A DNA stretch of 64,000 nt from Dacryopinax spathularia. Its lineage: Eukaryota; Basidiomycota; Dacrymycetes; Dacrymycetales; Dacrymycetaceae. The position numbers and the translations under genes were made by a program. Position 1 is the stretch's first letter. Every line of letters starts with the position of its first letter. Positions 5,270 through 35,498 of this stretch are shown here, piece after piece. Below the pieces are notes generated by a model. The model saw nothing but the letters and a program-made list of their open reading frames with translations. It made no database searches and was not told where the DNA came from. The stretch lies in contig JBBPFI010000005.1 in assembly GCA_037974965.1 (NCBI GenBank), positions 310,001 through 374,000 of the forward strand, in the 5' to 3' direction.

Positions 5270-5427
5270 GGGTTTTGGAGTTTTCACGTTTTAGGGTTTC
5301 CAAGTTTTGGGGTTTTAGGGTTTCCAAGTTTTGGGGTTTTAGGGTTTCCGGGTTTCCGGGTTTTAGGGTTTTAGGGTTTTCAGGTTTTGGGGTTTTGGGT
5401 TTTCAGGTTTGGGAGTTTTGGAGTTTC
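5270..5427 (+). repeat. Telomere-like GGGTTT(T) minisatellite, G-rich on the plus strand
   Basis: About 20 degenerate copies of a 7-base unit GGGTTTT occur, mixed with TTAGGGTTT and TTTGGGG variants. The composition is like an interstitial telomere array but not a clean (TTAGGG)n tract. A second array of the same kind, in reverse orientation, is at 35321-35498. Confidence 0.85.
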
Positions 5428-6276
5428 GCGCTTGGAGGCCTTTCCGGTGTGGTCGGTTGGGATTTGGCCTTTTGAGGTTCAGGCTTCGGAGTTATTCATG
5501 TTCTGTAGTTGTAGACTTGGCCGCATCGGCGGTGTGCATTCGGATGAGTCCACGGTAAGCAGTATGGTGAGCCGTCCCGGGTCCAGTACCAGCGCCAGAG
5601 TTGGCAAGACTGATGACCACTGAAGAAAGGGCGGACAAGGGCATTCTGGGACGCGTGGGGATGCAAGATACTCGCTGGCATGCTCTCGACGCCGTCCAAC
5701 TGTGCTCGGCAACATGAGAGGGTCGCCGCAAGGCCTATACTTGTGGCCTGAGTGATGGCGCGGTGCCGCGCGTCAAGACCGGTTATCTCTGCTACCCGCG
5801 ACGAGTGCATATTCTAATCGCAGGGTGGGGACTGTCAGAGCGATATCTACGGATAATATTCTGCTGTATAGTCCGTCTTGTGCAGCACGCCAGCGCGGCG
5901 AACATGTGAAAGTAGAACCATCCTGAACGTATGGATTGTAAACCCTGGCAGGCTCTGCCATGCACGATTGGTATGTCTGCATACGTATGTTGAGCCAAGT
6001 AAGCAAGTAGCAGGCTGCAGAAAGTATCCGTCATTGATTCAAAAGACGCAGTGTGGCGGACGAAGCGAGAGACAGGGAATAGTCGTGATGGAAGCCTTTT
6101 GATTCTTGTGACGTCTGGGGAGATATCGCCTTTGCCGACGGTTCTGTTCCATCATGGCTTTAGACACCCCGGAGTACTCTCGTTATAAAACTTAAACTTA
6201 CCACCAGATGGAGATGCGCCGAGGGACCAAGTTATGTCCTGACGGCATTCGTTCTGCGCCAGACTGACGGGAAATG
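5428..6276. other. No gene recognised
   Basis: Three overlapping minus-strand open frames of 70-100 codons lie here, but none has a recognisable motif or sensible splice sites. The 3' end of the neighbouring minus-strand gene could extend into 6190-6276 if a GTACGC donor near 6312 is used. Confidence 0.4.
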
Positions 6277-7188
6277 TCAACCGAATTCAAAAAAGCAGCA
6301 AAGAGGCGTACCTGCCTTCTGCCATATCATCAACCCCGCGAGAATAGCACTGAGAGCACAGGCAACTATAACCCGCCTGATACCGGCACGCAGCAGCTCT
6401 TTTCTCGCGGTATACACGAGCAATGCCCCCATCGTCGTGACGTTAACCAAGACCACTTCTGTGACATGCGCCACAGTGAGGAATGTATAGGATAGAACGA
6501 GGAACAGCGTCAAGAGGATTGACGCTAAGAGGGCGCGCGGTGTCTGCACTCCATCAGCCTCGCTGTTGCCGGGAAGGCCAGCTGCAGTATCTTCTCCTGC
6601 AAGCCAGTTGTAGATTGGGACGCGTTCGTACTGCACGTATGTGCCCTTGAGGTGTGGCGGAAGGAAGAGCTGAGTCATTTGACACAGAAACCGTCGAGGA
6701 ACACTGCCACTGCGTACTAAGATGGGTCAGGAGAGTTCATCGGCCGTCTAGCTCGACTTACCAAGTGGAAGGCGTTCATAAGGCGACAGGTGGCAATTGT
6801 ACTCGTCCACGGCGTTCTCGGAGATTGGGGTGAGGAGATCCAGGAGCTGGACGGCCGGCTGTTGAGATGGTGCGGCGGGCGTGTATGTCCCCCTCCCCTC
6901 AGGTTGCAGCGACGTTCTCCAATCAGGGCTTTCTGTCTGCAGCACCGACGACGGAAATACCTCGCCATCTGCATGATCGGATACCGTCGTGGAGGATAAA
7001 TCGTCCATGGATGTCCTCTCTACAAACAGAGGGGAGTGGAGGGGCGATAGGTCATCGCTGGTTGGTTCCTTCTCCAGGAAATCCTGCTGCATGGAGCGAA
7101 CGTTGACCACGAGAGGGGCATGGATTTCTGTTTGCCTGGAGGTGCAGCTTGGAAATGGGCCAACAGACGGTGATTGTTGTTCGGCCAT
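6277..7188 (-). CDS. Small multi-pass membrane protein, unknown function
   Basis: Two exons fit exactly: 6762-7188 and 6277-6716 (GTAAGT donor, TTAG acceptor), giving 288 residues from the ATG at 7188. The first 140 residues are polar, acidic and Ser/Pro-rich, probably disordered and cytosolic. Hydrophobic segments follow near residues 185-205 (LLASILLTLFLVLSYTFLTV), about 210-230 (TEVVLVNVTTMGALLVYTA) and 240-260 (VIVACALSAILAGLMIW). I do not recognise the family. It is divergent from the membrane-protein gene at 7673, with about 485 bp between the starts, so the two may share a promoter region. The exact C-terminus is uncertain, since a GTACGC site just before the stop could be a further donor. 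Confidence 0.65.
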
Positions 7189-7672
7189 TATGAAGTAAAA
7201 GGGTGGGTGGACAAAACCAGGCAGGTTGTTGAGTGGAAGCAGTGGATGAGGGGTTCAGAGTGGCTGTATGGCTGTCCACTCGCCTGCCCGTCCGCTTCTT
7301 TGGTTCCGCTCTTTCGCGGGCACCAGCGGCTCACCCCCATGATGTCACTGCAAAGCTTCTTTTCCCGGCAGAAAGTCCTGCTTGTAATGCTTGTAACCCC
7401 AATCTGCATATGCCGGATAGCCATACAATTCCCATCTCAATATTCTATAAGTCAGCCCTTTCTGGCGGTATACCTTGACAGCGGGATCGGATACAGAGTG
7501 AGACATGCGCGCGTGTGGTCCACCCTTCACGCCCCTGAAACCGCCAGCGGTCCCCGGCGTGCCTCTCTGCCAATAACCACCGTTAATACCAAACCGTCGC
7601 CATTACCCACAAACTCAGCTTAGCCACAAACCTAACACGCAACGGCGTCGGGGAGGGGGATACGAATGAACC
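7189..7672. promoter_or_regulatory. Shared upstream region of a divergent gene pair
   Basis: This is the intergenic gap between two ATGs facing away from each other. No defined binding site is claimed. A short plus-strand open frame here lacks coding character. Confidence 0.4.
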
Positions 7673-9229
7673 ATGGACGGGTCAACGCGTTATACTAGTC
7701 AACCTGCGCCGAGCAATATCGGTACTTTGTTGACACCCGAAGCGTCTCCGCACGTAGACGCAGCCGACACCTACACCCCAGGCTGGAGTTGGGAAGACGG
7801 AGAACATCCAACCTCGAGAGGCGATCAGCACGTTCTTTCACACAACCATATTCCCGACATCGACCTTCTTTCGTGGTCAGCTGCGACCACTTCGTCAAAC
7901 ACGGTGTCGCGCAAGACCAATCCAAGTCCGGTCTCGTATTCACCTTCTCTCACCGATCCTTCCACTTCAACCTGGTCAAGTTCGGCAACGGCCACGCCCA
8001 AAGCCCTCAGAACTGGGAGCATTGAAGCAGAAGGCAGTTTTCTGCTTCACTGTTTGCACCCGCTGCCTCGCCCAAGTTTGGACCATTCTCCTGGCGCGCC
8101 GTCCATTTCAATCCCTTGCCCGCTCGCCACAGAACCTAGCAGACCTCCTATCCTTCATACATCTCCCCCGTCCGGTGAGAATTTTCTTCTAGTGGACCTT
8201 CGAGATCCACTCAAACCCGGCTCCCTACATTCTCCTACCTCTCCGACTTCCTCATCTCCGCCACTGAACGACATACTCCCCCTTGGTCAGGGTCCGACCT
8301 CATCCATTCCACCTACCGTCACTTCGAACTCGACTACTCCCACCACCAGCACGAACGACAAGATGCCTCGATCGTTGAACAATCTCACCTCCGATATTGG
8401 TGGGCTCTTCACTGCCCTCAATGACTTCGTCAGGGGCGAACGTTTCGACTTCAACTGGTCACTCTTTGGGAAGACGCCCACGAACGCTCGTCCTACCCAG
8501 GTTCCCGCGGCCGCACCAGTCGAAATGGGCGACATGTCTTCCGCCACTCCCCTTCCAAACGATCTGACTGCGAGAGATCTCGAGGCCAACGGGGCTGGTA
8601 CAGTTGCCAATGAGCAGGATGCGGAGAAGCCCGGTGAGAGCTCGGGCGGAGAAAGATTGGACCCGGCCATCATAGTACGAAACCTGAACGGCGACCAGGT
8701 GGATGAGGTGCGCCCACTCTGCACTGACCACATGCGCGGTACTTACCTATTGCCTTAGCTCGTCGATAACGCGTCCTTCCTCCAGAACGCTCGTATGCTG
8801 GTTCGCATACTCGTTCATACCGCGGTCCTCATCGTTATCGTCTGCGTGGGCGGGGCCCTGAGTATCATCTACATCATTCTCTGGATCCTCTACTGGGCGA
8901 TCACCGGGTTCGTCGAAGTCCTCGCGTTATACTTCAAGGGCAAATTCGCATCTATCGCGAAGCTCACGGTCGCGACACTCGTCATGGGGGTGGGCCTGCT
9001 ATACATCCTCCGCCTGAGTACGTCTCAATGTTTCGTCTTCGTTGCTTCCACTGACGCTCGACTAGTCCTCCAATCCACGCATCAGGTCGAAGCCGTAGTG
9101 GACTGGTTGGAGAACGGCCAGTCCAGCTCTTTGAACGTCGCCGCTACCGTCACTGCTACCATTGTTGTCACCGCCGCTCAGAACGTATCGTCCGCTCTCG
9201 TCACGCCTTCCCCTACCAGTCTTACCTAG
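7673..9229 (+). CDS. Membrane protein with disordered N-terminus and hydrophobic hairpin
   Basis: The exons 7673-8707, 8759-9017 and 9066-9229 add up to 485 residues in phase (donors GTGCGC and GTACGT). Residues 1-345 are Ser/Thr/Pro-rich and largely disordered. From about residue 358 a hydrophobic stretch begins (RILVHTAVLIVIVCVGGALS, then IIYIILWILYWAITGFVEVL), consistent with two membrane segments. A third follows after a short loop (LTVATLVMGVGLLYIL). The last 55 residues are Ser/Thr/Val-rich. No known domain is seen. Its divergent neighbour is also a membrane protein with a polar N-terminus, so a shared membrane role is possible but unproven. Confidence 0.7.
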
Positions 9230-11225: not shown

Positions 11226-14200
11226 TCATTCCTCTCCCCCACTATCACTCTCCTCAGATATATGCAACTCGTCATCATCCTCAGCAGCATAGACCTTATT
11301 ATCGTCCGGCATGTCCACCTCCATTGCCTTGTCATGCTCGTCATCGTCATGGCCATCATCTCTGCGATCGAGCTCGGAAATTCCATCTACCGTTACGCCA
11401 GCCCGGTGGTCTTCTTTGTCGCAGCCGCCCAACGGATCCTCGTCTTCAAGAAGATGCTTTCTCCGCTGAGCTTGCTTGACGTTTTTCGACATCGGCAGAG
11501 GCTCATTGATTCCCAATCCGGGTCCGAGCAGCTCCTCAATAATTTTGGGATCAGGAAGCCGCGGCAAACGCTTGTCGCCCACTAATGGGTGATCCCAGAT
11601 GGCAGGTGCAACTAGTCTGCAATCAGTAGCACTTACGAGCACTTGGCAGATGTCTCTTACTTTTATCGCACTTGTCGTTACGAAAATCGCAGGTTTTGTT
11701 CTTGATCTTGCAGGGGTGGCAACTGTCGCCAGAAACTCTCCAGCAGAACTCGAACCAAGGCGAATCCAGCGCCTTTCCCCGTTTCCCTTGGCCTTGCATG
11801 CAGCGCGTGCAGCGATAAATGCCATGGGAGACCTGAAGTCAACTATTAGTGAGTGCGTGCAGCATATCTACAGACAAGCATACCTCAAGGATTGCGCCGT
11901 TCGAGCACGCCAGTAGGACTGTGCCGTATTTTCGTACCCTGGCAGCCAAGAAGTCGCCTGGCTTCTCTAACATCACTGGCATCCATAGTCGATATCCAGA
12001 ACGCCCCATCTTGGCTGTGTAAGGCGGCAGTTTACCTCTGGCCCCCTCCTTAGCAGTGGCGCCTACTCGAACAGCACGATTGGGCACGTTCCATGGACCT
12101 CGTTCGTAGTACGATTTCCATCGCTGGTCCTTTCGTCTTGGGTCATCGAGCACTGGCCGTAGTGGCGAGATGGGCACAAGCTTGCAGGTCACTATGCTCC
12201 ATCTGCCATGTTCTCCAACCCCATGTGTAGATGGCGTCGTATTCTCGACGCCACGTCCTCGTCGCTGGACCTTCCGTTCCTCCTGGGCTGAAGATGCTGT
12301 CGTGTCTGCTTCTTCCGGCGGACGATGTTTGCCTGGAACCCTGAGCTGGGCAAGGGCCGTGGCTGAGGCGTCCCGGTGGGAGGTCTCGGGCATCGTCTGC
12401 ATCATGGGATCGTCGTGTTCCGCGTTCTCCGCTGTCGTCCATCCGTCTGTCGCAACCCGGTCTGGGACAACAGGAGGCGGAGAATCAACGTCCATAGCGA
12501 CCGACTCCGGTTCTAGCCTAAACGCAGTCTGTGTTCCAGAAAGGGAGGATGAGGCCTGCATTGGATCGTCGTCTACGTCCATCATGTGCCATGCTCCTCC
12601 GTCACCCGCCGCTGGGCCAACATCTGGCTCTTGCATAGTGACTACTGCATCCTTCGGTTGACCTGCCTTCCGGAGGGGCGCATCCACAGGTTCGCTTTGA
12701 AAAGCACGCTTCACTGAGCGCGAGCTGCGACCTTCGCCGCTGCGAGTTGTCCGCAATGCCTCTGCCTTCCAGACTTCCAGAGATACCAAATTGAATCGCA
12801 AAGCCATCTTCTGTAACCAGAACTGGGGAATTACCCGGCGGTCAGGAATAGCGTCCATTAGCGACGGATAGTCTTCGCAGGCATTGTTAGCCGTTTGGAG
12901 AAGCTCCATGACTTTGACCTGAAGGTCGTCCGGAGCTCTGTCTAGCGCATCGGAGGCGAAGGACATGAATATTATGCCCTAGAACGAATTAGCAACCTGC
13001 TGAAAGGGGCTTTCAGACTTACCAATTCACCACAGGCACGATGGAGAAGATCCAGGGTCTGGATGTCATCCACTAAGTCGTTTCTTGTCGGGGCACATTG
13101 TTGAAGGCGTGTGAACCAATAACCTGGCTCTAGATGAACATGGGATTGCCTTGCCATACCACCAATGGTTCCGCAAAACCATTCAGCTGATGACGGAAGG
13201 AATCGTGTCGGCAATAGGTCTAGAGGTATGGTTGGCACCAGGGGGCGAGATTGAAACAGCTCCCTTAGTTGATCGAGAAACCTCCCGAACATGAGCATGA
13301 TTGGTATCGAAGGTGGGAGGCGATTGATGTAGCACTGCAGGAAGTAGATGATCTGGCAAAGACAAGTCAAACTCTGTGCGGAGACCTCTTAGTGATCATA
13401 CTCACCCAGGTGTCACTCCTTGATTGCATGTACCATAGCGCGGAGCGGGGATTAACTTCGCCCTTCCACGTTCCATCTTCCGGCAGGATAGTGTTGGACA
13501 ATCCATCGACGAATTCCGCGCTCAACGCCTGCGATATTCGGTCGGCGACACGCTCATCGAAGGCTTGCCACCAAGCTGGGCGCGCATGTGGTTCCATCTT
13601 CCGCTCGACCCTCCGTAGGAGCGCGGGGCTTCGACCAAGGACATAATCAGTGATATCACGCGGGATCCAGTCCCTGGACAACAGTGTGTCCGCTTTGTCG
13701 ATGTCGAAAGCCCATATTGCGTCTCGTTCGTAGTGAGCATGTTGTAACAGTCGAGCGGTGAGACGTCCCGCCCACTCGCCTAGTTTCAGTTGATTCCCAC
13801 TCCGGTACGCGATGTCCTAGATGACGACCGATTAGGCAAGCTAGTTGGCAGGACGTGCAACGTACCCAGAGCCTGCGATGGACGCAGAGCACCTTCTCCC
13901 CTCGCCCCTTCTCGCGACGATCGAGTGCCGGTAACGTTGGCGCACTTTCCAATAGATTGAGAAACAGGTCGCAGTGCAGCAATCTCATGCGATCCACCCA
14001 TGGCACGATGAAACCGACGCGGCGCTTGGATATCTGATAAGAAAGCCCAGCCAACCGTCCGTCGCGTTCGGCAATGTGTTGCGGGGAAGCCAAGAACGTC
14101 CAGTGCACGCATGGCAGAAACGAACTGAATCGTTCTTTTGGGATCCATTGTAGTTCCAATCCGATAGCATCGCTCGGAGCCATGCCCTGATGCTCGATAG

Positions 14201-14553
14201 CATATTGGCTCGATGTCATGACGCGTTCAATGAGCGACGCTAGAGCAGGCGGGAGTTCACCGATCCAGCAGCTGTTGTGCAAGAAAAGCAGGAAAGCATT
14301 CTAAAGTAATTGAGACTGGCACGCAGAGCGTGATGGAGTTCACACGCACAACGACGCTCTCCCACTTCCGCCTTGCGATGGTGTCGAACCTGACAGAAGA
14401 CTTAGATGCAGCGGCTGTATCGGCCTCTAGGACGTGTATCACATCTTGAACGATGTCATCCAGATAGATGAGCAAAGCACATGCAGCGTCTGAAGCATCA
14501 TAGGTATCGATAGAGAAGGTGTCCCCTTCGTCGCCAGATGTTGAGCCGTCCAT
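11226..14553 (-). CDS. 1000-residue unknown protein with C-terminal cysteine cluster
   Basis: Seven exons close exactly in frame: 14350-14553, 13866-14300, 13406-13816, 13023-13352, 11884-12978, 11661-11832 and 11226-11581. The first half (about 460 residues) is a folded helical-looking region with conserved-type Trp and Leu (NAFLLFLHNSCWIGELPPAL near residue 70). Residues 500-800 are disordered and acidic with Met-Asp-Val repeats. Near residue 870 comes a cluster with spacing C-x2-C-x19-C-x7-C-x2-C-x6-C-x6-C (from CTRCMQGQ to NDKC), reminiscent of fungal zinc-binding modules in which two CxxC pairs hold a metal. The tail is very acidic. It is divergent from the PIF1 helicase with 243 bp between the starts. 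Metal and nucleic-acid binding are inference. No family name is offered. Confidence 0.8.
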
Positions 14554-14796
14554 GAAGCATCACAACCATTTACAGATTCTAGTAGCAGCGAATCTTATGC
14601 AGGAGGAGCGGCGTTGCCTGAATAGGCATTAGGGCCCAAGGCGGAGCCATTTGTCGCGTGGATATCAACAACGCCACTTGGAGAGGAGCGCGACTCTGAA
14701 CAACGCGCCGTGACACCCTTTGAAGCGGCAGGCTGGTACGGATAGAGCACAAACACATCTCATTCCCTCCCGTCCTTCTCTTTCTCTGACGCCAAC
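14554..14796. promoter_or_regulatory. Bidirectional promoter region between Cys-cluster gene and PIF1 helicase
   Basis: A 243-bp gap separates two ATGs pointing away from each other. The arrangement suggests co-expression of the pair. No specific motif is claimed. Confidence 0.5.
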
Positions 14797-17700
14797 ATGC
14801 TGCACGAGCCACCCTGGCTCTTTCAGCGTGACATGCTGGAGAACAGTACGTCTATCCGTGAAGAACTATCCCGGCGCGCCCGGGTCGTCAACTCAGCCAA
14901 ACAACTAAGCCATGGGTTGGGATTCCACTTTCTCGAGATTGAGTTGCGCTCCCATGCGCCCCAGTTCTCTTTAAACCCTCATTGGGTGCGAAACGAGAAG
15001 GTGAAGCGGAAGGAGTTAGCTCGACCAGCGACGGACGCTGCCCGTGACGGTGGGCATACGAATGGTATGGCTGTGAGCCTCCAGTCTGATGCCTGGTTCG
15101 TCAGCGGTTATGGAGACATCAGGCGTTAGCGGCGGACGTGCGTGCCCCTCTATTCAATCTTGTATCGCTGATTTCTAATATTCTCTTTATGCCAGCTGTG
15201 GAGCATCCTCCAGGGCGGGGCACAAGCGAGTCAACGGCGACACGAGCTGAAAGTAACAGCAATGTCATCCGGCAGACACGGCTCGATCATGATGTGAGAG
15301 CTGAAAAGCCAATTGTACCCCGCGATAAGCGTGCGTGCGACTTCTTTTCTCGAGTCGGCATTGAAAGCGCTCCAGCAGATCAACCCTCCGACCTGACCCA
15401 AGTGCCCAATCACGCTATGGTACCTCACCCACCACTCGTGCATCTCGAAGAAACTGCGGATGCTACCAAACAAGACCTTTTGGGTGCGGCTGAATCGATT
15501 CTGCGGCAGACGGTCCATATTGACGCTGGTTGTTAGATCCACCTCCGCCTCACTTATCAGGTGCCCGTCCACAAGTGTCAGAAGAAGCGATGGACCCTAT
15601 CGAACAGGATCAAGCCGCCGTTGACGTTGGCTTGACCAACGTCCTCGGTATCAAGGCGGGGGAATCAGGTCTGGGGATTGTCACAGCTGTGACTCCCGTG
15701 CCACCTGATCCACCAGAATTGCCCCACTCATTCGCGCCACCGTTGTGCCCTGGTACATCCAGCCAACGTACGACCATCGAAATCGAGAGCCAGAAAGCTC
15801 TTACAACGCCTAGTGACGGTTCGTCGGCCATCCTTAAGCGACCCACCTCTGTCTAACGCTTAGCTTTATCCAAGGGAATGCCCAACAGAACCACTCACCT
15901 GCCCGTCCGGTCGGCCACGGATCCCAAATTCGATCAACGCAGCTGGGACATGGCGGCGCTGAGCACGCTCGCACACCACTCATCGCTTCTAGCAGGGAAG
16001 GGGCAGCTGAAGATGATGTGTCCGTCTTGGAAACGCTCAAAATCGGCCCGGCGAACCTTCTCCCAGGTCAGTTTTCGGATCGCGCTTGTCATCACGCTGA
16101 CGATTTTCTAGATGGCGTTCTTACTAAAAATGCTCGTCCAGAAGCAAGCTCACCGAGGTCCACCGCTGCGGGGTCGCAACAGGATGCGCCAAACGCCCGT
16201 CCTGGTTCTGATTGGCCGTCCTCTTTCAGTTCCTCCCCTAAGCCCCTTCAACGGTCAACGGTGCATGGCAAGGCAGCGGGCGAATCGCAGAGTATGCGGG
16301 ACAGTCGTTCAGCCCCTGCGTACTCTCAGGTCAGGGATACTACTGGCACGTCTTACTTCACTCTCCCTGCCTCCTCCCATTGAGCTCACTTCGCTGAGTA
16401 CAGAGCCTGTCGCAAGTATCCCCCAAGCACTCACCCATCTGCCCGATAAGCGAGGACCAAACCCGTTCGGATCGAACGGAGACCTAGCCCGTCCGCCCGC
16501 GGAAGACGTTCTGCATCCTAAGCCGTCATCTCAGCGCCTGTTTTCGGATGTTGTTGCTGGCCGCAATCCTCCGTCACCTGGGACAGCACACGGAGCTGTG
16601 CCGGGGAAGGATAGGGGGTCGTCGTTGACAAGCAACCCCCAAGGGGAGCCTTGCGCCATAAAGCCGGCCGCCCTTCCTGAATCGACCGTGCCTCATTCAA
16701 CGAGAGAATTCGTAGCTCCAGACAACAGTACGAGGACGGATCGCTTGGGCGGTGCTCCAGCCACTTTGAATCTTACCAAAGGTGCGGCTATCATGACCAG
16801 GCTGTATCACGCTGTACATCCGTCCCCAGGCAGGATCAAAAAGAAGGCTCCTCCCCGCAATGTGATCATTGGCAACTCGAATAGCGACGGCAGCAAAGCA
16901 CAGGCGCCGCCCAAGCCCAGCGAACCCGTGCTCACGTTTGAGCAGGAGCAAGTGATCGCCAAGGTGTTGGCTGGAGAAAATGTTTTCTTCACGGGACCGG
17001 CCGGTACGTACTCAACATGGCCTGAGCGTGTCCATCCTCATGTCGCATGCTAGGCTGCGGCAAGTCGTTCCTGCTGAAGCATATCATCCAACTGTGTCGC
17101 GAGCGCTATGGTCATGACGCCGTTGCCGTGACAGCATCGACGGGCATTGCGGCAGTGCCTTTGGGTGGCTGTACTCTGCATTCTTTCGCGGGCATCGGAT
17201 GGGCACAGGACAACCAGTACCGTCTAGTGGAGCGATTAAAGAAGAAGCCGTCACTTGTGGCCAAGCATGTTGGAACGAAGGTCTTGTGCATTGATGAAGG
17301 TAGGTATCTCCCTCCGCCTAAAAGGCCTGCGTCTGAAGTCGTAAAGTATCACCCATATCTGCCAGTACATTCGGCATGTGCAATTATGTAATCAGCCATC
17401 TACGTTGTCGCCACCGTTTGCCATTTGGTGGAATCCAAGTAAGGTAGTTTATACTCTCTACGCAGGTTTTTGACTCTCCACAGATCATTGCCACCGGTGA
17501 TTTCTTCCAGCTGCCGCCCGTTGCGAAGAAGCACCAGCCGGTATCATATGCGTTCGAATCCACAGACTGGAAAGAGACCTTTTTGCCAAGAAATCAAATT
17601 AGGCTCACTCAAATCTTCCGTCAGACAGAACCCGGTGCGCATCAATATATCCTGCTTATTTGCTGCTTGACAACCAAGCAGACTTCCTTGAAATACTTGA

Positions 17701-23328: not shown

Positions 23329-25673
23329 ATGTCTAGTCAAACTGGAGTCTGCCGCTGGTGTCAGAAAGGATTCCCTTACCTGAACGGCAATATATGCTCG
23401 CGGTGTCGCCAACGCGAAGAACGCCAGGAAACGCCCCTCAACACTCAATGTGGTGGCTGCGGATCAACCTTCCTGTACATGGATGCTTCAGCTTTATGTC
23501 ATGCCTGCGCTAGCCGTGACTCCAGCCTAGGTACGTAGATACTCCCAGGCTTGGCATCCAGGCTGATACGGAAAGACAGGACAGCGAGAGGGTCTCCTGG
23601 CGCATACAGCCCGGAGCGTGGCTCAGGAAGACACAGCGACTTCCTCTGCAGTGGTTGCACGGCCACCGGTGAGCCCGCTCTCGTGAGTAGGATGTTCTGG
23701 GTGCGTCGCTCACTTACGAGTTCCCAAGATGATTTCCCACCGAACGGAGTCTATCGTACAAGCCATGCGACAGACCGAGGTACAAGCCCGTGCGCACTCG
23801 ATGAGCCGCGGAAGTGCACCTCCCGCGAAGTCCGGCCTTCCAGCTCACTTTTCCCTTGCGGGTCCACTGAAACCACTGGCGCTGACTCACATTACGGTAC
23901 GGGTACGTGGATCCGTTTCCAGTTCATCGCCACGCTGACCGGAAAGCAGATTTCCAATATTGTGAGGGAGCCCAAGCGCAAGGAACAGCTGTCGAGCGCT
24001 ATCATCATTCACCGGTACGCGGTAGAGCTGCCCTGGAAAACTATAGAAACACAGCTTGCGGGGCATGTGCAGTATGCGATACTCCAAAATCGAGTCAACC
24101 AGAACGAACTCGTGGAATTGTGAGCTCGTCATGACAGCAACAACCTTTAGTCAATGGCTCACCCATCTGAGCAGGCCGAACATCACTTTTATTTTTGCGC
24201 CCAGTGGGTCCGATTACTTGGCTGGTTCAACCGGAGGTACTCTACTGGAGTTCTGGAGAAAGCATACGGCGGAAGACGTGCGATATATCCATGTCACTGC
24301 CAAGCAGTTCCAGCCACCCACCCTGGATCTCAAGGCCTGTGTGTGGATGCGGGCGGAGCTTGCGCAAATTGAAGCCGAGCAGGACCAAGTGAGTCCGTAA
24401 AAGATCCCCACTTCAATAAACTCATGTAAGACTTTAATGCAGTTGCCGGCAGTCCCGTCCACCCCGGAGAGGCAGTGGTATATGAGTAGCGCTGAACTAC
24501 AGTCACCATCACCCGCTGCCCGGACGCGCTCTGCTCAGGTCCTTCCAGATACCCCTAGTCCCAAGCGGCGATTGCCAGGCGCACCCGGCGGAGATCTGAA
24601 GCGATTACGGAGCCCCAGCGGTGCAGTCGTTGCGGTATCCGGCCCTCAACGCTATCGCACACAGATCCGACCGGCAATGACCATGTTAACCTACGTCGTC
24701 GCGGAGTTGCGCTGCATTCTCGATCCCATCGACGGGACAGCCAATATCGTATCCAGCGGCTCGCCGTTTTCGATCCAGATTGCTGAGACGCATTTTGCTG
24801 AAGGTACTTCGAAGCGCGCCTACAAAGTAGGCCCTCCTTCCCAACCTGACCTCCGATGTAATGCTCATTCAGAACTAGATGCTCTGTCGCAGTAACGGCA
24901 AGGAAGAGATGATGGTAGCGAAGCGTGTTTTTATTGACGAACAGAATCAGCAGCCTTCACGACTGGGGAATATCATGCATCTGGAACAGGAGATGGCTAG
25001 GGCTGCTCGAGCACGCCACATACTGAGTGCGTTTGAAGCGAGATGCGAGGAATACAATGTCAAGCTCTACCGTGCGCGTTTTCTGTGCGACTCTGTGGGC
25101 AAGCTGAGGGCTGACTGGCGCGATATGACAGCCATCGAGATCGTCCAACCGGTCGTCTACCGTGTACAGCTCGGCGAAGGAGAGGATCTCGCCTGGCTTG
25201 TGGAGCCATATCTAGGAGCTGACCCGCCGACCAAGTTTTCCGGTACACAGGAAGCAGGGAAGGCGCCGGGGAACGACCCAGTGGGCGCAGCGCTGGATGC
25301 ATTTGCCCACTTTTCCTTGCTGCAGTCTCTGGACTCATTAGTGCTTGTTGATCTGCAGGGTAGGTGACCGGTACTTTTGTCTTCTAGACGAGTCCGACGA
25401 TGATCCCCGACTTTCAGGCATCTTCAGGCGCTCGACGGCCGGAGGACCGGCAACCGTGGAGCCGATTGTTCTATTTGACATCCAGACTCACACGTGAGTG
25501 TCGCAAAAGCGGGCTAAATGAAAATCTGACTCTTCACGAGCGAGGACGGGGACTCTGGTCTGGGGGACCAGGGACGGCTAGGAATAGCAGAATTTCGGAC
25601 CCAACATCAATGCCGTGCACTGTGCAACGCCTTGCGCCTTGGTGAGATGTCTGCAGAGTACGTGGTCGCCTAA
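23329..25673 (+). CDS. Alpha-type protein kinase with N-terminal zinc ribbon
   Basis: Nine exons close in frame at 639 residues: 23329-23530, 23580-23668, 23729-23902, 23950-24066, 24125-24388, 24443-24826, 24879-25359, 25418-25493 and 25541-25673. The start is MSSQTGVC. A zinc-ribbon-like CxxC series (CRWC, CSRC, CGGC, CHAC) fills residues 7-62. The alpha-kinase domain covers about residues 410-635: EGTSKRAYK, the Lys of VAKRVF (ATP-binding candidate), DAFAHFSLLQSL...VLVDLQG, VLFDIQTHT, a Gly-rich GLGDQGRLGIAEF loop, and the terminal H-Q-C-R-A-L-C zinc-binding residues. These are the hallmarks of the myosin-heavy-chain-kinase/eEF2-kinase type, which phosphorylates Ser/Thr in helices. The exon 4/5 border is the least certain. 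The open frame may splice on into the next module. Confidence 0.85.
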
Positions 25674-25723: not shown

Positions 25724-26886
25724 TCTGTGCCATATGGACGCTCTCCCAATAAGATCAACGCCTCGACGGCAAGGAATGACAAGGTTGTGGACGAGGCATC
25801 GAACTCCGCTAACCGAGACCAGGAGTGCGAGAATGGGGATATACGTAGCACCGTCTCCAGGAGCACCTTGAACGATGCCTCGCTAGGCCGAACCACAGAG
25901 CCAGATGAGATTCCCGACTTTACGTACGTTCTTACCTTCTGAACAGTATCTGAACCTCCTGGCTGACAAATGGGACACACTGCTAGGCCGGAGATAGGGA
26001 GCTTCCTCATGTTCAAACTCTCGGAGAAGCGGCCTCATTATTCTCCGGCTCGGGTGGTGGAGATAGACAATACCACTCGGACAGCGGTACTGGAGTGGTA
26101 TCCCGACATGGTCTGGGACGGCCAGCGAAGGCAGCCTCGTAAGAATCGCTTCGAGGCAGACTTCCACCGTTGCGGCTTGGCCAAGGATCGGACCATCGGA
26201 AATAAGTCCAAGGTGCGCGGTATCTCCTAAGGGCTCGACACGTCGTAAATCTGACTCTCGTGGGGTAGATTGCAGTGATCAAATGGCCTGAGCGATTCGA
26301 AGAGAGCGTTCCGGGGCGGGACATCAACCTTTCCGCTTATTTGGCGACAGCCACCGCCTTGGTTCTCGAAATTCTTCACGGAAAGCAGACGCACCCCGTC
26401 ATGGAAGAGTGGAGGATCTACCAGGCTGGCGTAAACGGCTCTCGTCAAGGTAAGCAGCCCGTGTCAGAGATTACCTATAGGTTCCTTCAGGACCGTCAAG
26501 TCCCGCTGGCGGATAACGAGCAAAGCACCGTCGAAGATTGGCTATGTGACGTATGTCGCATTGGCTCAACTTCGATCGCCACAGACATGGATCCTGTCGA
26601 TTGGCGAAGTCTCTGTCAAGGTCCCGGCACTGTCCTCGGCTCGGTCGCGGCGGCGTGCTACCTTCTTGGTCCTACTCAAGCACTCGACCTCCATCACGTG
26701 TACTCCATTAGACACCAATTGGTGTCTGGGCCGCGACCGCTCGTAGAGCGCGCTTGGCAGTGCATGTATAGGGCGTACGCCCCAGTGGGACGGAACTCCG
26801 ACAAGTTCGAGCGAAGTCATCGCAGCATCGTGGCTGGTTGGAAGGAGCCATCAGGGGGATTGTCTATCAAAGTACCTGATAATTAG
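25724..26886 (+). CDS. Tudor/PWWP-like module, possibly the kinase's C-terminal part
   Basis: The exons 25724-25922, 25988-26212 and 26270-26886 read in one frame. After an acidic linker comes a small domain of chromatin-reader type: GSFLMFKLSEKRPHYSPARV, VEIDNTTRTAVLEWYPD and RKNRFEADFHRC, the pattern of Tudor/PWWP-like beta-barrels seen beside fungal mobile-element proteins (family resemblance only). A helical region follows, ending in a C-terminal 150 residues rich in Trp and Cys (WLCDVC, WRSLCQGPGTVLGSVAAACY). The first exon has no in-frame ATG, and only 50 bp separate it from the kinase stop. A splice from 25660 (GAG TAC then GTGGTC) to 25724 would make one long protein. Otherwise the start would be the Met within the second exon. 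Confidence 0.6.
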
Positions 26887-27097
26887 CCACAGCCATCATA
26901 TCTACCATGTGCTGTATTGCCGCGCCTTCACGCCAATGATAATACACTTATGCCCCCGAATGATGGTTGCCCGATATGGCGGGAGCAATTAATCCGCGCC
27001 ATGCGGGTCGGAGCCAAGTAACAACCCCGGCGTTGGCTCCGTTATCCCTTCACGCATCTCGCACGGCATTGAGACAAGCTGCTTGCCCACCACCAAA

Positions 27098-27682
27098 ATG
27101 CCCGATTCTGGCATGGTTCAAACCGAGCTATTCTTCACAGGTCGCAACGTCTGGGCCGGCCGGTTCACACCCAGTACGACGGTATTCGCTCAAGTGCAGG
27201 TCCATGTTCCAGGCAGGACGGTGTGTCACAAGACGGGAAAGGTTCGAGCCCCTGACTAACCTCCGTAGGTCTTTGCATTTTCTGCAGTGCAGTCGATGTC
27301 TCTACCTCCGAAGGCGCCCTGGGTACACCTGCAGCTGCAGGGGCAGCATTTGTTTGCTGGCATTTGGACGCCGAATGTGAACGTCTTGCTAGACGTAGAC
27401 GCCCCTGCGGGAGGTATACTGGTGCGCCCATCCCGAGACGGCTTGTACGCCTCACTAACTATGGGAGCACAGTATATCACTTTCGTTGTCCTCAATGACT
27501 GCGAGGAGATCTATAGGGTGCCCGGCCCCTTTGTTTGGAGATCATTTGCCACACCTCCGGTTGACGATCAGTTACCAGTCGCCAGTCCCCGCAAGCGAAC
27601 TCGACGGTCGACGCCGAATGGCTCATTCAACCCACCTGGGATGAGCGGTACGATAAGGCCGCGGCCCCTGCGTTCAGCCTAG
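27098..27682 (+). CDS. 171-residue protein with two similar halves
   Basis: The exons 27098-27199 and 27269-27682 close in frame (MPDSGMVQTELFFTG...). Two segments align with each other: RNVWAGRFTPSTTVFAQVQV near residue 15 and QHLFAGIWTPNVNVLLDVDA near residue 60, sharing an (aromatic)-A-G-x-x-TP-x(3)-V-x(3)-V pattern. Both look like beta strands, so a duplicated beta-sandwich or propeller-like piece is plausible. The C-terminus is basic (PRKRTRRS). A shorter 27-bp intron is formally possible but too small for this genome. No family is recognised. Confidence 0.5.
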
Positions 27683-28619
27683 CGCTGGCGTTGGGTCTAT
27701 TGATGCTGAAGCGTCGTTGCCCGCGACTGGACCCCGTCTATTGCGTGTTGCGAATGCACGGGGAACCTCAAGGAGCAGGCGGGGTGTAGCTGCTTGTCGT
27801 TGAAAGGAAGGAGAGGAGGTGCTTGCATTTGGGGGACACCGGGCACGCTGGAGTCTACCAGGGGTGTCCGATGCTTTCCTAACCCTTCCGGAAGGGCTCA
27901 GCCTAACTCAAGAGAAAGACTTTCCCTATCGGTTCACAGTACAACCGATGACCGACAACCGTCCCGAGATGCGCACGGCACGCGCTTGTTCAACCATAGA
28001 CTGAAGCACGAAGTCGTGGAAATGCTGGATGGCGCGTGTCCGCACGGACTGTGAGGGGGTGGTGTGGCTGCCGGAGAGCCAATAATGGTTTGCAACTGGT
28101 TCATCACGTACAATCTGTTGCATCGATATAGGCCATGTACTGCAACCTTCTAGCCACAATAAAGGAGACGTTCCATAGCGCTGGCCGTCGATGCACCTCA
28201 CTTCGTTTCAACTGGAGAGAAAGATTCTCGGCCGTGCGGATCTTACAGGCACAAGGCGCCGAAACAGTCACGGAACAAGAAAATGAGTAATCGGGCCGAA
28301 GATGCTGACTGCTCTATCACCTAGTGGCTATGCCTGGAAAGAGTCCCTGTCAAGCAGTAAGTAAATATTCGTCGAGTTACTAGGGAGCTCAACCCGGTAA
28401 TGCTTTTGAGGCGTATCGAGGCAGTTAAGCATTGCTGATGAGCTGGAGCGCGCTTCATCCTGTTGGGACGACCGCAAGGCGATACGGCCACCTTCGGAAT
28501 CGATGTGGACCCGGGAGGGAAGGCGGGGAGCCGTGGCAGAGATTCCAGACAGAGGTGTCTTGGTCGCGTCTCCGTTTTGGTTGCTTCCGGCCACCTCTTT
28601 CCTCTTCTCTCCCTCCATC
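27683..28619. other. No gene recognised
   Basis: Short frames on both strands only. The last 150 bp are the upstream region of the F-box gene that starts at 28620. Confidence 0.45.
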
Positions 28620-30295
28620 ATGCATCAAGCCTGGCTTATACCGGAGCTCGTCGAACTTTTCCTAGATGCATTAGAGATGGATCGCCCTACTCTGGCAGCA
28701 CTTAGCAGGGTTTGCAAATGCCTTTCACTGCCGGCCATCGCAAGACTGTATGAAACGCTGGACCAGGCCGTGATTGAGGCTATATCACGGATCGCCGTCA
28801 TGAACCGGGGATCTGACTACACGCACTTGGCTGGACCACATGAAGTGCATTCAGTACGTGCGAACAGCGATCCTGTCTTTATCGGCTGCACATAGACTGA
28901 AATCCGCAGAGAACGGACGTCCTTCGTGTCTACACGAATTGCTGCCGATCTGGCTGCCTAGATGTATGCGCTTCGTACGAGTTCGCCTCTTGGAAGTCCG
29001 CGCTAGCATACATTCAAGCTGCTGGTGTGAAAGGCGATGATGGGCTGTTCCCGAGCTTGGACACGCTCTCTGCCAACGTGAATACACCCGGCGGCATTTT
29101 GCTGGCAAGCTATCTTTGCCATCCTCAACTCGAAGACATGGACCTAGTCGTTGTACGGAATGGGAGCTCCGCTTTTGCCGATCTAGACTGGGATCCGTCG
29201 GTCACATCGCTCTTTCACGCGTTGCGAGCCCCTGCACGCAACCTTCGGACGCTGCGGGTGAAAGGCCACGTTGATCTCGGCGAAAGAAGCATGCAGGCAG
29301 TCGAAAAGACCATACGAGAGCTGCATGCGGTGGAGGACGTATCCTTGGACATCGAATGGCTTACGCCAATCGCTCTTACCGCATTGGGCCGTCTCCCAAG
29401 ACTGATTACTCTCTCATTGTGGCGTCCGCCTCCTTCTCCAAGTGCCGAACCGTGTGATCGTCTTTCTGCCTCTCTCGGCCGAATCCCGTATGAGCAAAGA
29501 CTTGTCCACCTGCAAGGCCTTCACCTGCAGACCGACGTCCAGACCGCAGCCAGTTTACTTCAGTGTCTTCTTTCACCGCTCTCTTATCTGCGACTTACGG
29601 TCCAAATGTCTCCTGAAGACACGTTTACCCTGAAGAGCCTAGCAACTGCTATTGCTCGTAGCTTCAAGGATACGCTGCTGTATCTGTCTCTCCGCTTGAA
29701 GATGGCTCCGGACAGTCACTTGCGCCAACTGGAATGGTTTGAATTTCGCCCGCTCCAAGATTGCAAGAAACTACTGGAAGTCTCCTTAAAGTATCGTATC
29801 TTTGGCCGGTTTGAGTTCCATCGTGCTCAGCTCCTAGCGCTTGCAAAGTGGTGGCCACGGCTAGAGTATTTACGGTGCGAATGGTGGGGCTGCCTGGGAC
29901 ACCCTCTTACTACTCTGACCATTCAAGACGTTCTGGAGCTGGCGAAGCGGATGGTCGATCTCAAGGTCATCGTACTTACGGCCATCAGCTGGCTCGATCG
30001 GAGCTGCGTGCTGCCCTTAGGCACAAGATTGCAAACCATAATACTCGGTCGTGCATTCTTCGAGGGAGCTGAATCGTGGGTGGCGACTATGTGGGCACTG
30101 GCTTGTCCGTTTACTGAGATTCGTGTCGGGGAAGCGGCCACCCAGCACGCTTGGAGGGCAATAGAGGAAGAACGATCGGTCCTATTGCAAGGTGCTGTTA
30201 CCGACGGTTGTGAAGAAGCTGAAACTACTGTCCAGCGCTCTGAGGCGGATTCGGAGGCACTGACGCTCACGGAGAACATGGAATGGGAGGTTTAG
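28620..30295 (+). CDS. F-box protein with leucine-rich repeats
   Basis: The exons 28620-28853 and 28910-30295 give 539 residues. The N-terminus is an F-box of the mushroom type: MHQAWLIPELVELFLD, then LAALSRVCKCLSLPAIARLY. Leucine-rich segments follow at regular intervals (LRTLRVKGHVDLGERSMQAV, LTALGRLPRLITLSLW, WPRLEYLRCEWWG, LAKRMVDLKVIVLTAISW). F-box proteins bind Skp1 and bring targets to the SCF ubiquitin ligase. It is a clear paralogue of 33545-35126: both begin MH(Q/R)AW(L/R)IPE, have one intron at the same place and share LEYLRCEWWG/LRTVRMEWYG and the (A/E)SWVATMWALACPF-type ending. The target is unknown. Confidence 0.85.
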
Positions 30296-30498: not shown

Positions 30499-31777
30499 TC
30501 AGGATATCCATCCCCAGCTGAAGGACGGTGTGGTGCTTCCTCCATCGCGTTTCCATTCAATCTCGTGGGTCCTCGCCTCACTCACGTAGGCTTGCGTCTG
30601 TGACAACCACTCCCTGCCTGTATAGTCGTCGATCTCGAGGTTCAACCATTCAGGCAGGCGCCTTAGAATGAGTGCAGCGTCTAACATCGCAAACGAGACT
30701 GCTTGTTGAACGTGTAGTCGCAAAGGAGAGCGTCTGGTGCGCAGAAACCGCAGGCTTGGAGGTCGTTCGAAGATTGCTTGACCCACACTAACGAAAACGA
30801 GCTGGGGGTGGGCCTGTGCCACATCCATAACTCCATCGAGCGTGATCGCGGCATTAGCCGCATGCAGAGAAGTGGTCGCGGAGTTCGAACCGTTCGCTTT
30901 CCATCGACAAATCAATACCTCTAGGTTGGCTCCGCAAGCATTGGCTAAGCTGGCCAATATGCGATCAGAGAAGGTGAAGGTGACGTTCAGGATGTTTATG
31001 TCAATCTTCATCGTCGTCAGGCCGCCGCAGGCTAGGGCCACAACCTCAAGCGCTCGCCATTCTAGGGTCATCGATCCGACGGTGCCGGCCGAGGCATCGG
31101 CAGACAGGGTGATGGAAAGATGTTGTACTCCGCGCACGTTCACATTGCGGAGTATAGACTGGGGTACATCTTCGAGCGCAAAAGGCCCGCGGGGATTGAA
31201 GGACAGCCAGCTGAGGGCTGGCGAGACGAGACAATGCAACTGTAGACCGGTGATTGTTCCTGTGATGGCTTGGGAGGCGAAGACAAGATCCACGACGGTA
31301 GCGACGACCATCTCGAGGGTCTGCAAGTTGTTGAAGATGGGAGCAACTGTGACAAACGCGTACGGCGATATGGCTCGTTGAAGCTGCAGTGAGGCGGAGG
31401 CACATATAGCGGTGACAGAGTCGCGCAGTCGCAGATGGCGTATAAGGGCTCGGCAGGAAGCGTCCATCTCCCCGGGCACCTGGGAGCGGACAGTATTGCA
31501 GCGATGAGATAAGCCACGCTCTCATCGAGAAAGTGATGACATTTACAGATGAACCAGGTTGCCCTATCGCGTCTATCACATCTAGAATGATTGACTCATC
31601 AGCTAATTCAGACCGCAGGTGCGGTGCCAGCGCCTTGGCAACCGCCGAGTTTGCGCTAGCCAGTTTGATCACAGCAGGCCAGCCAGCGGTGTCGAGTACG
31701 ACGTGAGCCAGACGTTGCATGATGCTAGGGAAAGGAACAAGCGTAGATATCCCAGCACGGCCGGCGATGGTATCCAT
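30499..31777 (-). CDS. F-box/LRR-like protein, divergent subfamily
   Basis: The exons 31547-31777 and 30499-31479 give 403 residues from MDTIAGRAG. An in-frame ATG at 31858 would add 27 residues. The first 90 residues are helical (LAHVVLDTAGWPAVIKLASA, SLQLQRAISPYAFVTVAPIF) and may replace a classical F-box. Leu/Ile-rich strands follow (NVRGVQHLSITL, CGGLTTMKIDINIL, CGANLEVLICRW). The C-terminus (SPLRLHVQQAVSFAMLDAALILRRLPEWLNLEI) matches the gene at 18869-20190. An SCF adaptor role is inferred from the paralogues. Confidence 0.7.
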
Positions 31778-31895
31778 GGTGGAGAAGTGTAGTATGTAGA
31801 TGAACTCGAGCAGGATGCTTCCCCTGTCAGCGACGCGTGTATTTGCCTCCGTGCGCATCTCTCACAAGTCTGCTTCTGACCACGATCTTCCTGCC

Positions 31896-33058
31896 ATGCC
31901 GAACAGAATCCATCCTCAGGACGATGCTTGGGAGCATCTAGAAGCCTGGTACCAGAAGGCGAGGAGAGAAGGATACGAAGAACAGTTTTTGAACCAGATT
32001 AACCCGGACTTCATGCTGAGATGGGCTCCTCAAACTCCCCCGCCTCCGGGAGACGAATCTCGTTACAGACTACGGACTCGGGCGGAAAAGAAGGCTTATT
32101 GGGCACAGAGTGACGTTCTCTTTCCTGCTGTGTTCAAGCTTCGGCGTTTGAATGAGGCCGGACGACGAACTTCGGTGTCTCCTGCCATCGTCCGTGCGTC
32201 ATCTGACGGTCCCAAAGCCAACGAGGGCAGTAGCCGTCGCCGTTCCGGGACACGTGGCTCGCAACCGTACCTCACATCCTCGAGAGCGTCTGATACAGAC
32301 CCATTGCCGGCAGTCACTCGAACTGTCGATGAAGAAGAATCCGAGTGTAATGAGCAAGAAGCCGGATGTGAGCAGGTATGCGTTTTATGTTTATGCAGAG
32401 GCGGGCTGAAGCACTGAGACTCCTTGGCAGTATATATGCGCGGATGCATCGCTCATGGAGGACGCGGATGCTACAGACATAACCCTCTCGCCTCGTTCCT
32501 CTCATAGCAGCTCCAGCATGATATCGGCTGCACTACAGTCCAGCTCAGGTTCTGTCGGTAGGGAAAGCGCGACTGACATGGGAGAAACTGAGTCCTGTGT
32601 GTCAACGACTGATGTGTCGATGTCTGAAGAGATGGCACCCGTTCTGTCTATGTCCCCAGTGAGCACCCGCCTCCTAGCCATGGCTCGTTTGATGCTTTTG
32701 CTATATCAAGGACACGTTCTAATCGGGACTGCAGAGCGCTCCCCCGGACGGCATGCCGGCCGCTGCGGAGTCTACTGGCGTTTGCACTGTTCGAGTCCCG
32801 AAGATCAACGAGGACACGCTGAAGAGCTGGATGGACAACCTCGCCGAACACCCTCACTTCGCTGATCGCCTCAGACGGGCGCTGCTGACGGATCCGCGCA
32901 TCTCTGTTGACGGCGAACATCGTCTTATCTCCGGTGTACTGGAGCTAGTCGATGCCTCCAAGCAGCCAGGCTCTTCACTGGGCCATATCCGTCAACTCAT
33001 TCAACGCCTTCACAATGAGGTTAAGGACTTTGCTCTACACCTGCTCTCGGCCGACTAG
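31896..33058 (+). CDS. Disordered Ser-rich protein with helical C-terminus
   Basis: The exons 31896-32375, 32431-32658 and 32735-33058 give 343 residues starting MPNRIHPQDDAWEHLEAWYQ. The first 70 residues are helical and aromatic, the middle is acidic and Ser-rich (PRSSHSSSSMIS), and the last 90 form a likely helical bundle (NEDTLKSWMDNLAEHPHFAD...RQLIQRLHNEVKDFALHLL). No known family. It is divergent from the F-box-like gene at 30499-31777, with 118 bp between the starts, and embedded in the F-box cluster. A regulatory partner role would be speculation. Confidence 0.6.
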
Positions 33059-33544
33059 GGTGTTATCAGATCGCACCTGCTCTGGTCCAGTCTCCCAGCC
33101 ATCATTGCGAAGAACGCTGCTCTGTCCCCGTAACTCTAATACAGCACCGCGCTCTTCTTGGGACTGCGTCGCTCATAATGACCTTTAGCAGACCGTGTCA
33201 TAGCAACCGTACCGTATTACTCCCTTTCCCTTCGGCCGGTCGTGTCCAACCTGTATTCACGAGCCCCGGCGCAGCCGGATGTCATGTATATTCGCTGCCT
33301 GTACCTCTTTGAGCTCAGCGCATCTGCGCATATGACTAGAACATTAACGAAAGCCGTGTAATTCAACCATGCCATCATCGGCACGGGAATCTCGATTGCC
33401 TTCGGTTCCCGCAGGCGTGCGCCCGAAGGGCGGAAGAAATTAGCCAAGCGCGTCTGATCCCATCAGCGTAAATAGCGTCGCGTTCGGTCACATGACCCGC
33501 CGTCTTCCTATCGTTTTACGCCTGTATACGCGCTGCTGGGCAAT
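33059..33544. other. Intergenic, upstream of an F-box gene
   Basis: No gene is seen. One short minus-strand frame has no support. Confidence 0.5.
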
Positions 33545-35126
33545 ATGCATCGAGCATGGCGGATACCAGAAGTTGTTCTCATGATTTTGGAGTTCTGCTC
33601 TCCTGGCACGCTGTCTATGTTGGCACGAGTCTGTCGGCTATTTTTGGGCCCGTCGCTGAGACTGCTGTACCATGAACTTGATACGCGGGTCGCCGCAGCC
33701 GTCACTACGACAGCGATGAGGTTGAAAGGAGATAGCTCAACTCATATCACGGGCATGGGCATTGTAAAGGTATGTGTGCGCCTGGGCCACTCGTTTGAGG
33801 ATATGCTTAAAGGCGCTGTCTGTCGACCAGGGAGAGCATGTGGCCCGCTATTACTTGCACCAGTGCCGCGCCATCCACGCGCATATATGCTCGCCATTCC
33901 AGGCCAGTGTATGGAGTGCTGCCTTTCGCACATTCGCGGAGATCGGGGGGGACATTCTTTGCCTCTTCGAACGTGTGCGACGGGTAGCTGTCACTGTGCA
34001 CGATCCGAGCGGCCTACGCATTGCCACCGCCGCCATTCTACCCGGCATCCTACACCTCGAGATCAATCTATTCTCCCGCTCTCGATCCGTCGGCAGCGAG
34101 TGGTCCGAGGCACTCATTATGGCCATGAAGGCGGTTGAAAGTTGCGCGCCATACGTGGAGCATTTCAGCTTGCGTCTCAATTTCCGCATACCTTCAGCTG
34201 TTCTCCCGGCTCTCCATGAGGCATCTTCGCGCATATCGCGCGCACAGCAACTATCGCTGCCGGAGGAGGCGATCACGCCTACGTTCAAAGCGCATCTGTC
34301 TCGACTTGGCTCCCTTCGGCACCTGCGGATCCTTTCGCCGCAGACGGGTCCGAATTTCGGAACGGGCCAGCGCTTTCAAATCCTTCTTCCAACTCCTTCG
34401 ATACGAGTCGTGGCAAACGGATTGCTAGCTCTCACATTGCAGGGCAACATCGCACGAGCGGTTATGACGATAGGGGAGATCTCCACGGATCTGCAATATC
34501 TGGATGTCGACTTGGTGTTAAATAGTGAAGCTGACGCGCAAGTACAAGATCTGGCACTCGTCATCGCGAAGCAGTTCAAAAACACTCTATCCTTCCTCAA
34601 GATCAGATTAGAGTTAAGGCCTCATCATCGCTCGCGCTCGCTGAATTGGTCTGAAATGATCAGCCTTCTACAATGCTCTCAATTGACGCACTTCACCCTT
34701 CTATATGCGACGCGGGGCGGTTTCCCGCTCACCGCATCAAGTATATTGGCGCTGGGCGAATCATGGCCGTTGCTCCGAACCGTTCGGATGGAATGGTATG
34801 GCGAGCGGCAGCCACCGTCCACGACGCTAACGTTTCAAGAGCTGCTGCTTCTTGCCAGTCGCCTTCCGAACCTCACCAATGTCGTGCTCACCGCACTCAG
34901 TTGGGAAGATCAGAACACGCTACCTCCTCTTGGGGGACATCTACAAAATCTTACCATCCAACGGCTCATCATGGACCGCGATAGCCAGGAATGGGTGTCG
35001 ACCCTTTGGGCTCTAGGATGTCCTTTCACCGCGATAGAGGTCACTAGTCCGACAGACGCGGTGCGCTGGGCCCAAATCAAACTGGATCACGACCTTCTGC
35101 TCTTCCAAGGACCACCAAAGTATTGA
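33545..35126 (+). CDS. F-box protein with leucine-rich repeats
   Basis: The exons 33545-33769 and 33813-35126 give 512 residues. The F-box is MHRAWRIPEVVLMILEF, then LARVCRLFLGPSLRLLYHEL. Repeats with Leu/Ile spacing follow (LGSLRHLRILSPQTGP, LLQCSQLTHFTLLY, WPLLRTVRMEWYG, ASRLPNLTNVVLTALSW). It is the paralogue of 28620-30295, with the same intron position after about 75 codons. The intron is only 43 bp. Its 3' end lies 195 bp from the telomere-like array at 35321. Confidence 0.85.
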
Positions 35127-35320
35127 GGTATAGTTACGGCAACTGACGCACAATTGTGTAAGATGCGCCGGTCGTCAGAGAGGGAAGGTATTTCTGCTCG
35201 TGATGTGACACAGCGGAGTACGTAGGTAGAGGTTCCACGGTTCTCCCCTTCGTATGTATTATGCAACCACGCGCACGTAAGCGGACGCTAAAATGGATGC
35301 TCCAACCCTTGCACTCGGTG

Positions 35321-35498
35321 CAAAACCCAAAACCGCAAACCCAAAAACCCCAAACCCCAAAACCCAAAAACCCAAAAACCCCAAAACCCAAAAACCCAAA
35401 AACCCAAAAACCCCAAAACCCGAAAACCCGAAAACCCGAAAACCCAAAAACCCAAAAACTCCAAAACGTCGAACCACGAAACCTGAAACCCAAAACCG
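35321..35498 (-). repeat. Telomere-like minisatellite, G-rich on the minus strand
   Basis: About 25 degenerate copies of a CCCAAAA unit occur (GGGTTTT on the minus strand), with CCCCAAAA and CCCGAAAA variants. It is the same repeat class as 5270-5427, in opposite orientation. Long open frames of Pro/Lys or Phe/Gly on either strand across it are artefacts of the 7-base unit. Confidence 0.88.

Follow-up and report, generated by a model that had tools for sequence, protein, structure and literature searches.

Among fungal transposons of giant size that carry cargo, the Starships of the Pezizomycotina are the best-known examples. IS3EU transposons are described with TA..TA termini and, usually, 6-bp target site duplications (TSDs) (PMC10045372). 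In TET+ IS3EU transposons the transposase gene and an alpha-kinase gene are reported to face in opposite directions, and rust representatives are reported to have 6-bp TSDs and terminal inverted repeats (TIRs) over 30 bp that end in TAYGG..CCRTA (PMC12730594). Alpha-kinase genes are also described as highly expanded in rusts (PMC4469406). The locus treated here lies on contig JBBPFI010000005.1 (C5; other contigs are named likewise) of Dacryopinax spathularia, in a window of 64,000 nucleotides (C5:310001-374000) that was compared with the genome of 29.2 Mb in 24 contigs. The window contains an island of about 30 kb, measured from one tandem array to another (window positions 5270-35498). With a probability of roughly 0.6, this island is an old, giant (~30 kb) IS3EU-like DNA transposon, in which an 8-bp unit forms an inverted pair of arrays, one close to each border.

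An earlier note on this DNA placed telomere-like arrays at 5270-5427 and 35321-35498, inverted and with their G strands inward, and both can be read directly in the sequence; an inverted-repeat search gives 137-nt arms that are 78% complementary. The repeat unit is 8 bp, GGGTTTTN, rather than 7, as Tandem Repeats Finder assigns period 8 both to the left array (5270-5410, consensus GGGTTTTC, 17.8 copies, 73% matches) and to the right (35322-35466, consensus AAAACCCA, 18.4 copies, 87% matches), and the exact period-7 pattern (GGGTTTT)x3 has no match genome-wide. The two arrays align with a score of 143 against means of 100-110 for shuffled 8-mers, a value reached by 1 of 2000 shuffles. Similarity between their 400-bp flanks, outside or inside the arrays, is no better than shuffled. 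With up to two mismatches allowed, GGGTTTTNGGGTTTTNGGGTTTT, which is GGGTTTTN three times over, has 20 matches in the genome, all within the two window arrays. The looser pattern GGGTTTNNGGGTTTNNGGGTTT has 35, including 21 with 0-1 mismatch that all lie inside the arrays and 14 with two mismatches, six of which fall outside, all of them solitary but for two on C13 that share a stretch of 450 bp. Backward-read controls for these two patterns gave 24 and 30 matches, respectively, whose places were not listed, and are not used as evidence. The random scatter of the minisatellite that the earlier note had named as grounds for giving up insertion was looked for genome-wide, and the array classes proved to be confined almost wholly to borders.

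A second large copy of the unit was found on C1 by DNA search and then translated comparison. The block at C1:95-123 kb is paralogous to the island and holds the same gene set, with counterparts of the large gene A, a short open reading frame (ORF), the PIF1-type helicase, an LRR-like ORF, the DDE integrase, the alpha-kinase gene, gene g27, and two F-box/LRR-like genes (Table 1). The order of the core, which spans 11.2-27.7 kb in the window, is kept in C1. A DNA search with window 15600-35330 gave matches on C1 and C17 and no near-identical copy. Pooled identity per gene between the window and C1 copies ranges from 35 to 72% of amino acids (aa), and synonymous sites are at or close to saturation, with a proportion of synonymous differences (pS) of 0.73-0.80. 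Because the ratio of nonsynonymous to synonymous differences (pN/pS) is 0.25-0.60 at such saturation, the proteins appear, from these comparisons, to have been under long purifying selection. Stops in the aligned pieces number three in gene A and one in g27, which may be intron read-through, and none in the six remaining island genes of the comparison. Over 20 kb of C1, blastn matches to the window are confined to gene pieces, yet the array motif is common to both.

The C1 block has 142-bp repeats containing GAGTTTTGGAGTT at its left border (95.4-95.8 kb), and at its right border 118-bp repeats containing AACTCCAAAACTCC (122.25-122.7 kb) and a (AACTCTAA)n array (123.3-123.4 kb). At up to two mismatches, GAGTTTTRGAGTTTTRGAGTT, of the GAGTTTTR class, has ten genome matches, all in this right border (C1:122058-123389), with none in its control. 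The 13-mer GAGTTTTGGAGTT has 12 genome matches, distributed over the C1 left border (six), the C1 right border (three), the left array of the window (one) and elsewhere (two), against two in its backward-read control. In 194 kb comprising the window and the compared stretches, GTTTTGGAGTT with at most one mismatch occurs at 41 sites, 37 of which lie at the borders of one or the other large copy, and every border site points inward (left, 14/14 on the plus strand; right, 23/23 on the minus strand). As GTTTTGGAGTT was taken from the arrays themselves, its abundance at the borders is not independent evidence; its orientation and its near-absence elsewhere are. The earlier note had offered two independent minisatellites as one reading, which is not supported, since the array classes, apart from the two stray 13-mer matches, turned up nowhere but at the edges of the two large copies, where their G strands point inward. 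Its reading of a large inserted element has gained from the second copy with related inverted arrays, and from a core gene pair that fits a known transposon layout.

That pair consists of the transposase and the alpha-kinase. Searches by tblastn gave 34 rows at 13 loci for the transposase, several of them distant, and 23 rows at 19 loci for the alpha-kinase family. At 11 of these 13 loci the transposase has an alpha-kinase no more than 10 kb away, where random placement gave a mean of 0.17 and a maximum of 4 in 20,000 trials, and the two genes are divergent at ten of these 11 paired loci, the window included, the exception being on C4. No kinase accompanies the transposase at C15:645 kb, known from one 30-residue match, or at C1:197 kb. 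Of the 19 kinase loci, eight are without a transposase in the vicinity and 11 lie within 10 kb of one, which suggests that alpha-kinase genes can multiply by means of such elements. Since a divergent transposase/alpha-kinase pair is the arrangement published for TET+ IS3EU, the island layout matches IS3EU; its ends do not, and the island is therefore labelled IS3EU-like and not filed as an IS3EU member. Transposase and/or kinase scores are equal or nearly equal between C3:1631795-1635604 and C6:1632597-1636405, and likewise between C5:142879 and C5:191490, which suggests recent duplicates.

Several observations weigh against a transposon bounded by these arrays. No convincing TSD, TA..TA ends or TAYGG..CCRTA ends were found at the window or C1 copy, and a 6-bp TSD sought at the array edges gave no match. 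The best end pair in the window, 5930/37015, agrees in 5 of 6 TSD letters and in 14 of 25 end letters, five of which were fixed by the search; it does not fall on the arrays, is one of 3572 pairs tried, and has no further end similarity, its 17/60 letters being equalled or exceeded in 54 of 500 shuffles. The C1 end scan gave one TA..TA pair against 0.59 expected, a weak result. The outer edge of the right array meets CCGTA (35496-35500), to which nothing corresponds at the left edge. The IS3EU-type ends may be old and decayed. The strongest point against the arrays as exact ends is a homologous gene that both copies have on the gene A side, about 0.5-0.6 kb beyond the array and pointing inward, with another homologue on C1 2 kb beyond the other C1 array. 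Either the element extends past its arrays, which would then be subterminal, or a larger block was duplicated; the window arrays may thus be subterminal and not exact ends. Between the window and C1 copies the F-box pair is inverted relative to the core, and the counterpart of the short ORF at 32.7 kb is displaced. The left array of C1 is a different repeat, in which 142-bp units hold the motif, and the GGG version of the array unit is absent from C1. Smaller copies on C4, C17 and at C5:301 kb are without these arrays. GTTTTGGAGTT has one site at C4, none at C17, one at C5:301 kb and none at C5:981 kb (10 kb looked at), with no cluster. Next to the C1 left array, a permease-like gene (C1:93.4-95.3 kb) abuts the repeats; one exon matches Transp_cyt_pur at E 3.6e-5, just under the cut-off. 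A claim that the C1 insertion had cut this gene was dropped, its joined exons having no Pfam match.

Repeats of other kinds were seen at some of the smaller copies. TTGCTGCCTGTCA in inverted orientation brackets the kinase-g27 half of two of them, about 200 bp past g27 in both (C5:303333 and 303413, plus, and 307762, minus; C17:348681, plus, and 353277, minus). Further sites of this sequence are at C5:291694, 298138, 298262 and 313698 and at C17:363855, and the C1, C4 and C5:981-kb stretches that were searched contain none. The C17 copy is flanked by inverted repeat pieces, each within about 100 bp and 17.6 kb apart (C17:348512-348612 and 366176-366300). The 12-mer flank comparison filtered out two-letter words, so that it undercounts the window's own arrays. 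At C4:1431864-1437438, some 3 kb from where the transposase/kinase copy of that contig lies, a pair of inverted 10/20-bp tandem arrays stands 5.5 kb apart, possibly a second type of array-bordered element.

The gene content of the island is collected in Table 1. Pfam was scanned with 47 island ORFs, a set that includes the pieces of gene A and part of the short exons. The PIF1 helicase, alpha-kinase and DDE integrase named in the earlier note were recovered, the last through the family rva_4 at E 0.086 on one window exon and at 7.1e-12 on the exon-joined C1 copy. The integrase motifs GDGHDK, LDKGSEG and IERSW, carrying D, D and E, are present in all three aligned copies, and a PDB search with the integrase alignment as profile query returned nothing meaningful. 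Zinc-finger matches of the alpha-kinase gene are below the Pfam cut-off. Gene A includes a 59-aa Cys-rich piece (11656-11832) that is 85% identical to the C1 copy; scanned piece by piece it has no Pfam family, and the structural model of one piece is of low confidence. The four F-box/LRR genes of the earlier note stand in part. One has a weak F-box match (33506..35123, E 0.0072, below the curated cut-off), one gives an LRR-type model (28901-30292, pTM 0.67) that resembles F-box/LRR and other LRR proteins, and the ORFs form two related pairs, 28901/33768 (E 8e-43) and 18872/30502 (E 2e-10); a link from pair to pair was not established. Rfam and tRNA scans of the 64-kb window gave no matches. 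Rightward of the island, ordinary-looking genes include an alpha/beta hydrolase and a glycosyl hydrolase family 3 protein (window 40416-41198 and 54185-55174).

Table 1. Features of the island and its left flank, in window positions
Feature	Positions	Strand	Remarks
Gene outside left array	4183..4641	+	Homologues at C1:124340-123903 (minus) and C1:93003-93248 (plus); no Pfam match
Left array	5270..5427	+	8-bp unit GGGTTTTN / GGAGTTTT, G strand inward
Two ORFs, second hydrophobic	7670..9226	+	No match in compared copies
Large conserved gene A, several pieces	11229..14300	-	No Pfam match
Short ORF	14746..15126	+	Conserved at C1, 37% aa
PIF1-type helicase, 7 matched pieces	16904..18606	+	Pfam E 1.3e-13
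LRR-like ORF	18872..19918	-	Conserved at C1, 34% aa; no Pfam match
DDE integrase/transposase (rva_4), 6 matched pieces	20585..22035	-	
Zinc-finger-like and alpha-kinase gene	23320..25667	+	Divergent from transposase; alpha-kinase E 1.2e-11
Gene g27, no assigned function	25979..27670	+	Matches at C1, C17, C4, C5:307 kb
LRR gene	28512..30292	+	Model of 28901-30292 is a strand-helix solenoid
LRR-like ORF	30502..31521	-	Related to ORF 18872-19918
Short ORF	32723..33055	+	Conserved at C1:112.2 kb, 37% aa
F-box/LRR-like gene adjoining right array	33506..35123	+	Conserved at C1:98.8-100.4 kb, 43-48% aa
Right array	35321..35498	-	AAAACCCN on plus strand, inverted relative to left array

An unlikely but serious alternative is that a gene-rich region, which happened to hold a small IS3EU-like element made up of the transposase, the kinase and g27, underwent segmental duplication long ago, with the 30-kb unit never mobile and the arrays incidental. 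Small versions on C4, C17 and at C5:301 kb, where no PIF1, gene A or arrays were found, speak for this account, as do homology that continues past the arrays and the want of a convincing TSD. It leaves unaccounted for array classes that occur almost nowhere else, flank the block in both copies and point inward. The core order has also been kept despite saturated synonymous sites, which a neutral duplication would hardly be expected to do. A large element that is now immobile and kept by the host, its genes retained at two loci as a functional cluster, is considerably less probable. Saturated synonymous divergence with few stops and pN/pS below 1 would suit it, as would the lack of a near-identical copy in the DNA search, but inverted arrays would not need to persist in such a cluster, and divergence of two element lineages during activity, followed by later insertion, would explain the pattern just as well.

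The earlier note also considered that two old telomeric chromosome ends flank captured DNA, and this has become very improbable. Inward G strands would fit two ends meeting, and the array unit is GT-rich, but the host telomere consists of TTAGGG repeats, which cap both ends of C5 and are found at ends of other contigs listed; TTTAGGG x3 is absent from the genome; and the 8-bp class is found only at the island borders, C1 having its own version. Because contig ends carry TTAGGG and the arrays carry GGGTTTTN, the window arrays are not host telomere. The case warns that a telomere-like array within a chromosome can mark the border of an element instead of an old fusion of chromosomes. An integrated virus or virus-like element of Polinton type, to which a DDE integrase and a helicase between inverted borders 30 kb apart might point, is scarcely credible, as the island ORFs include no viral hallmark family (DNA polymerase B, packaging ATPase and capsid gave no Pfam match in the 47 ORFs, some of the short exons included), none of 33 pattern matches in a viral contig collection, queried with two short peptides, was confirmed as an integrase relative, and the partner of the integrase is an alpha-kinase.

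If the island is a giant IS3EU-like transposon, its parts suggest how it might move. The array units would be putative sites, clustered near each border, that the transposase or the Cys-rich product of gene A binds, and their inverted orientation would let both ends pair, after which the DDE enzyme could carry out cut-and-paste movement. PIF1 helicases are reported to promote replication through G-quadruplex DNA (PMC8998199), and the helicase of the island might, speculatively, help to open or copy G-rich ends. The window arrays have GGG tracts and the C1 arrays mostly GG, so that a G-quadruplex role, itself speculative, is plausible for the window arrays only. As a guess, the kinase and F-box/LRR proteins could act on host factors in favour of the element. 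A more specific account can be put forward tentatively, at less than even odds. In a giant lineage of IS3EU type, TIRs would have been replaced by telomere-like arrays of a lineage-specific 8-bp site, with the element's own PIF1 serving the G-rich ends. Selection would maintain the arrays, which would evolve in step with the transposase and so be copy-specific, while their orientation and the core GTTTTGGAGTT outlast neutral sequence that has been erased.

The plant elements En/Spm and Ac carry subterminal clusters of short binding-site repeats near both ends. The island resembles them in its many short repeats near both borders and differs in that they belong to other transposase families and its own repeats form tight 8-bp tandem arrays. 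Helitrons, also present in fungi and carrying a helicase, are described as encoding an HUH nuclease with it (PMC12730594), whereas no HUH domain match was found among the island ORFs scanned. The likeness to IS3EU lies in the opposite-orientation DDE transposase and alpha-kinase and in hosts that, as described, include basidiomycete rusts (PMC12730594, PMC10045372). The island departs from IS3EU in its size of about 30 kb, with PIF1, the large gene A and F-box/LRR-like genes, in borders formed by tandem arrays in place of the TIRs described for IS3EU, and in having no convincing TSD; no TET/JBP family match was found in the island ORFs scanned. Among the literature matches listed, none reports a 30-kb array-bordered IS3EU in its title or abstract opening. 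With the Starships of Pezizomycotina the island shares the character of a giant fungal element with additional genes; Starship classification is described as centring on the tyrosine recombinase (PMC12134995), whereas the island has a DDE enzyme, and no tyrosine recombinase captain was matched by Pfam in the 47 island ORFs, gene A being scanned piecewise. If the reading as a giant IS3EU-like transposon is true, a DDE-transposase giant with array borders would represent a separate route to a Starship-like outcome.

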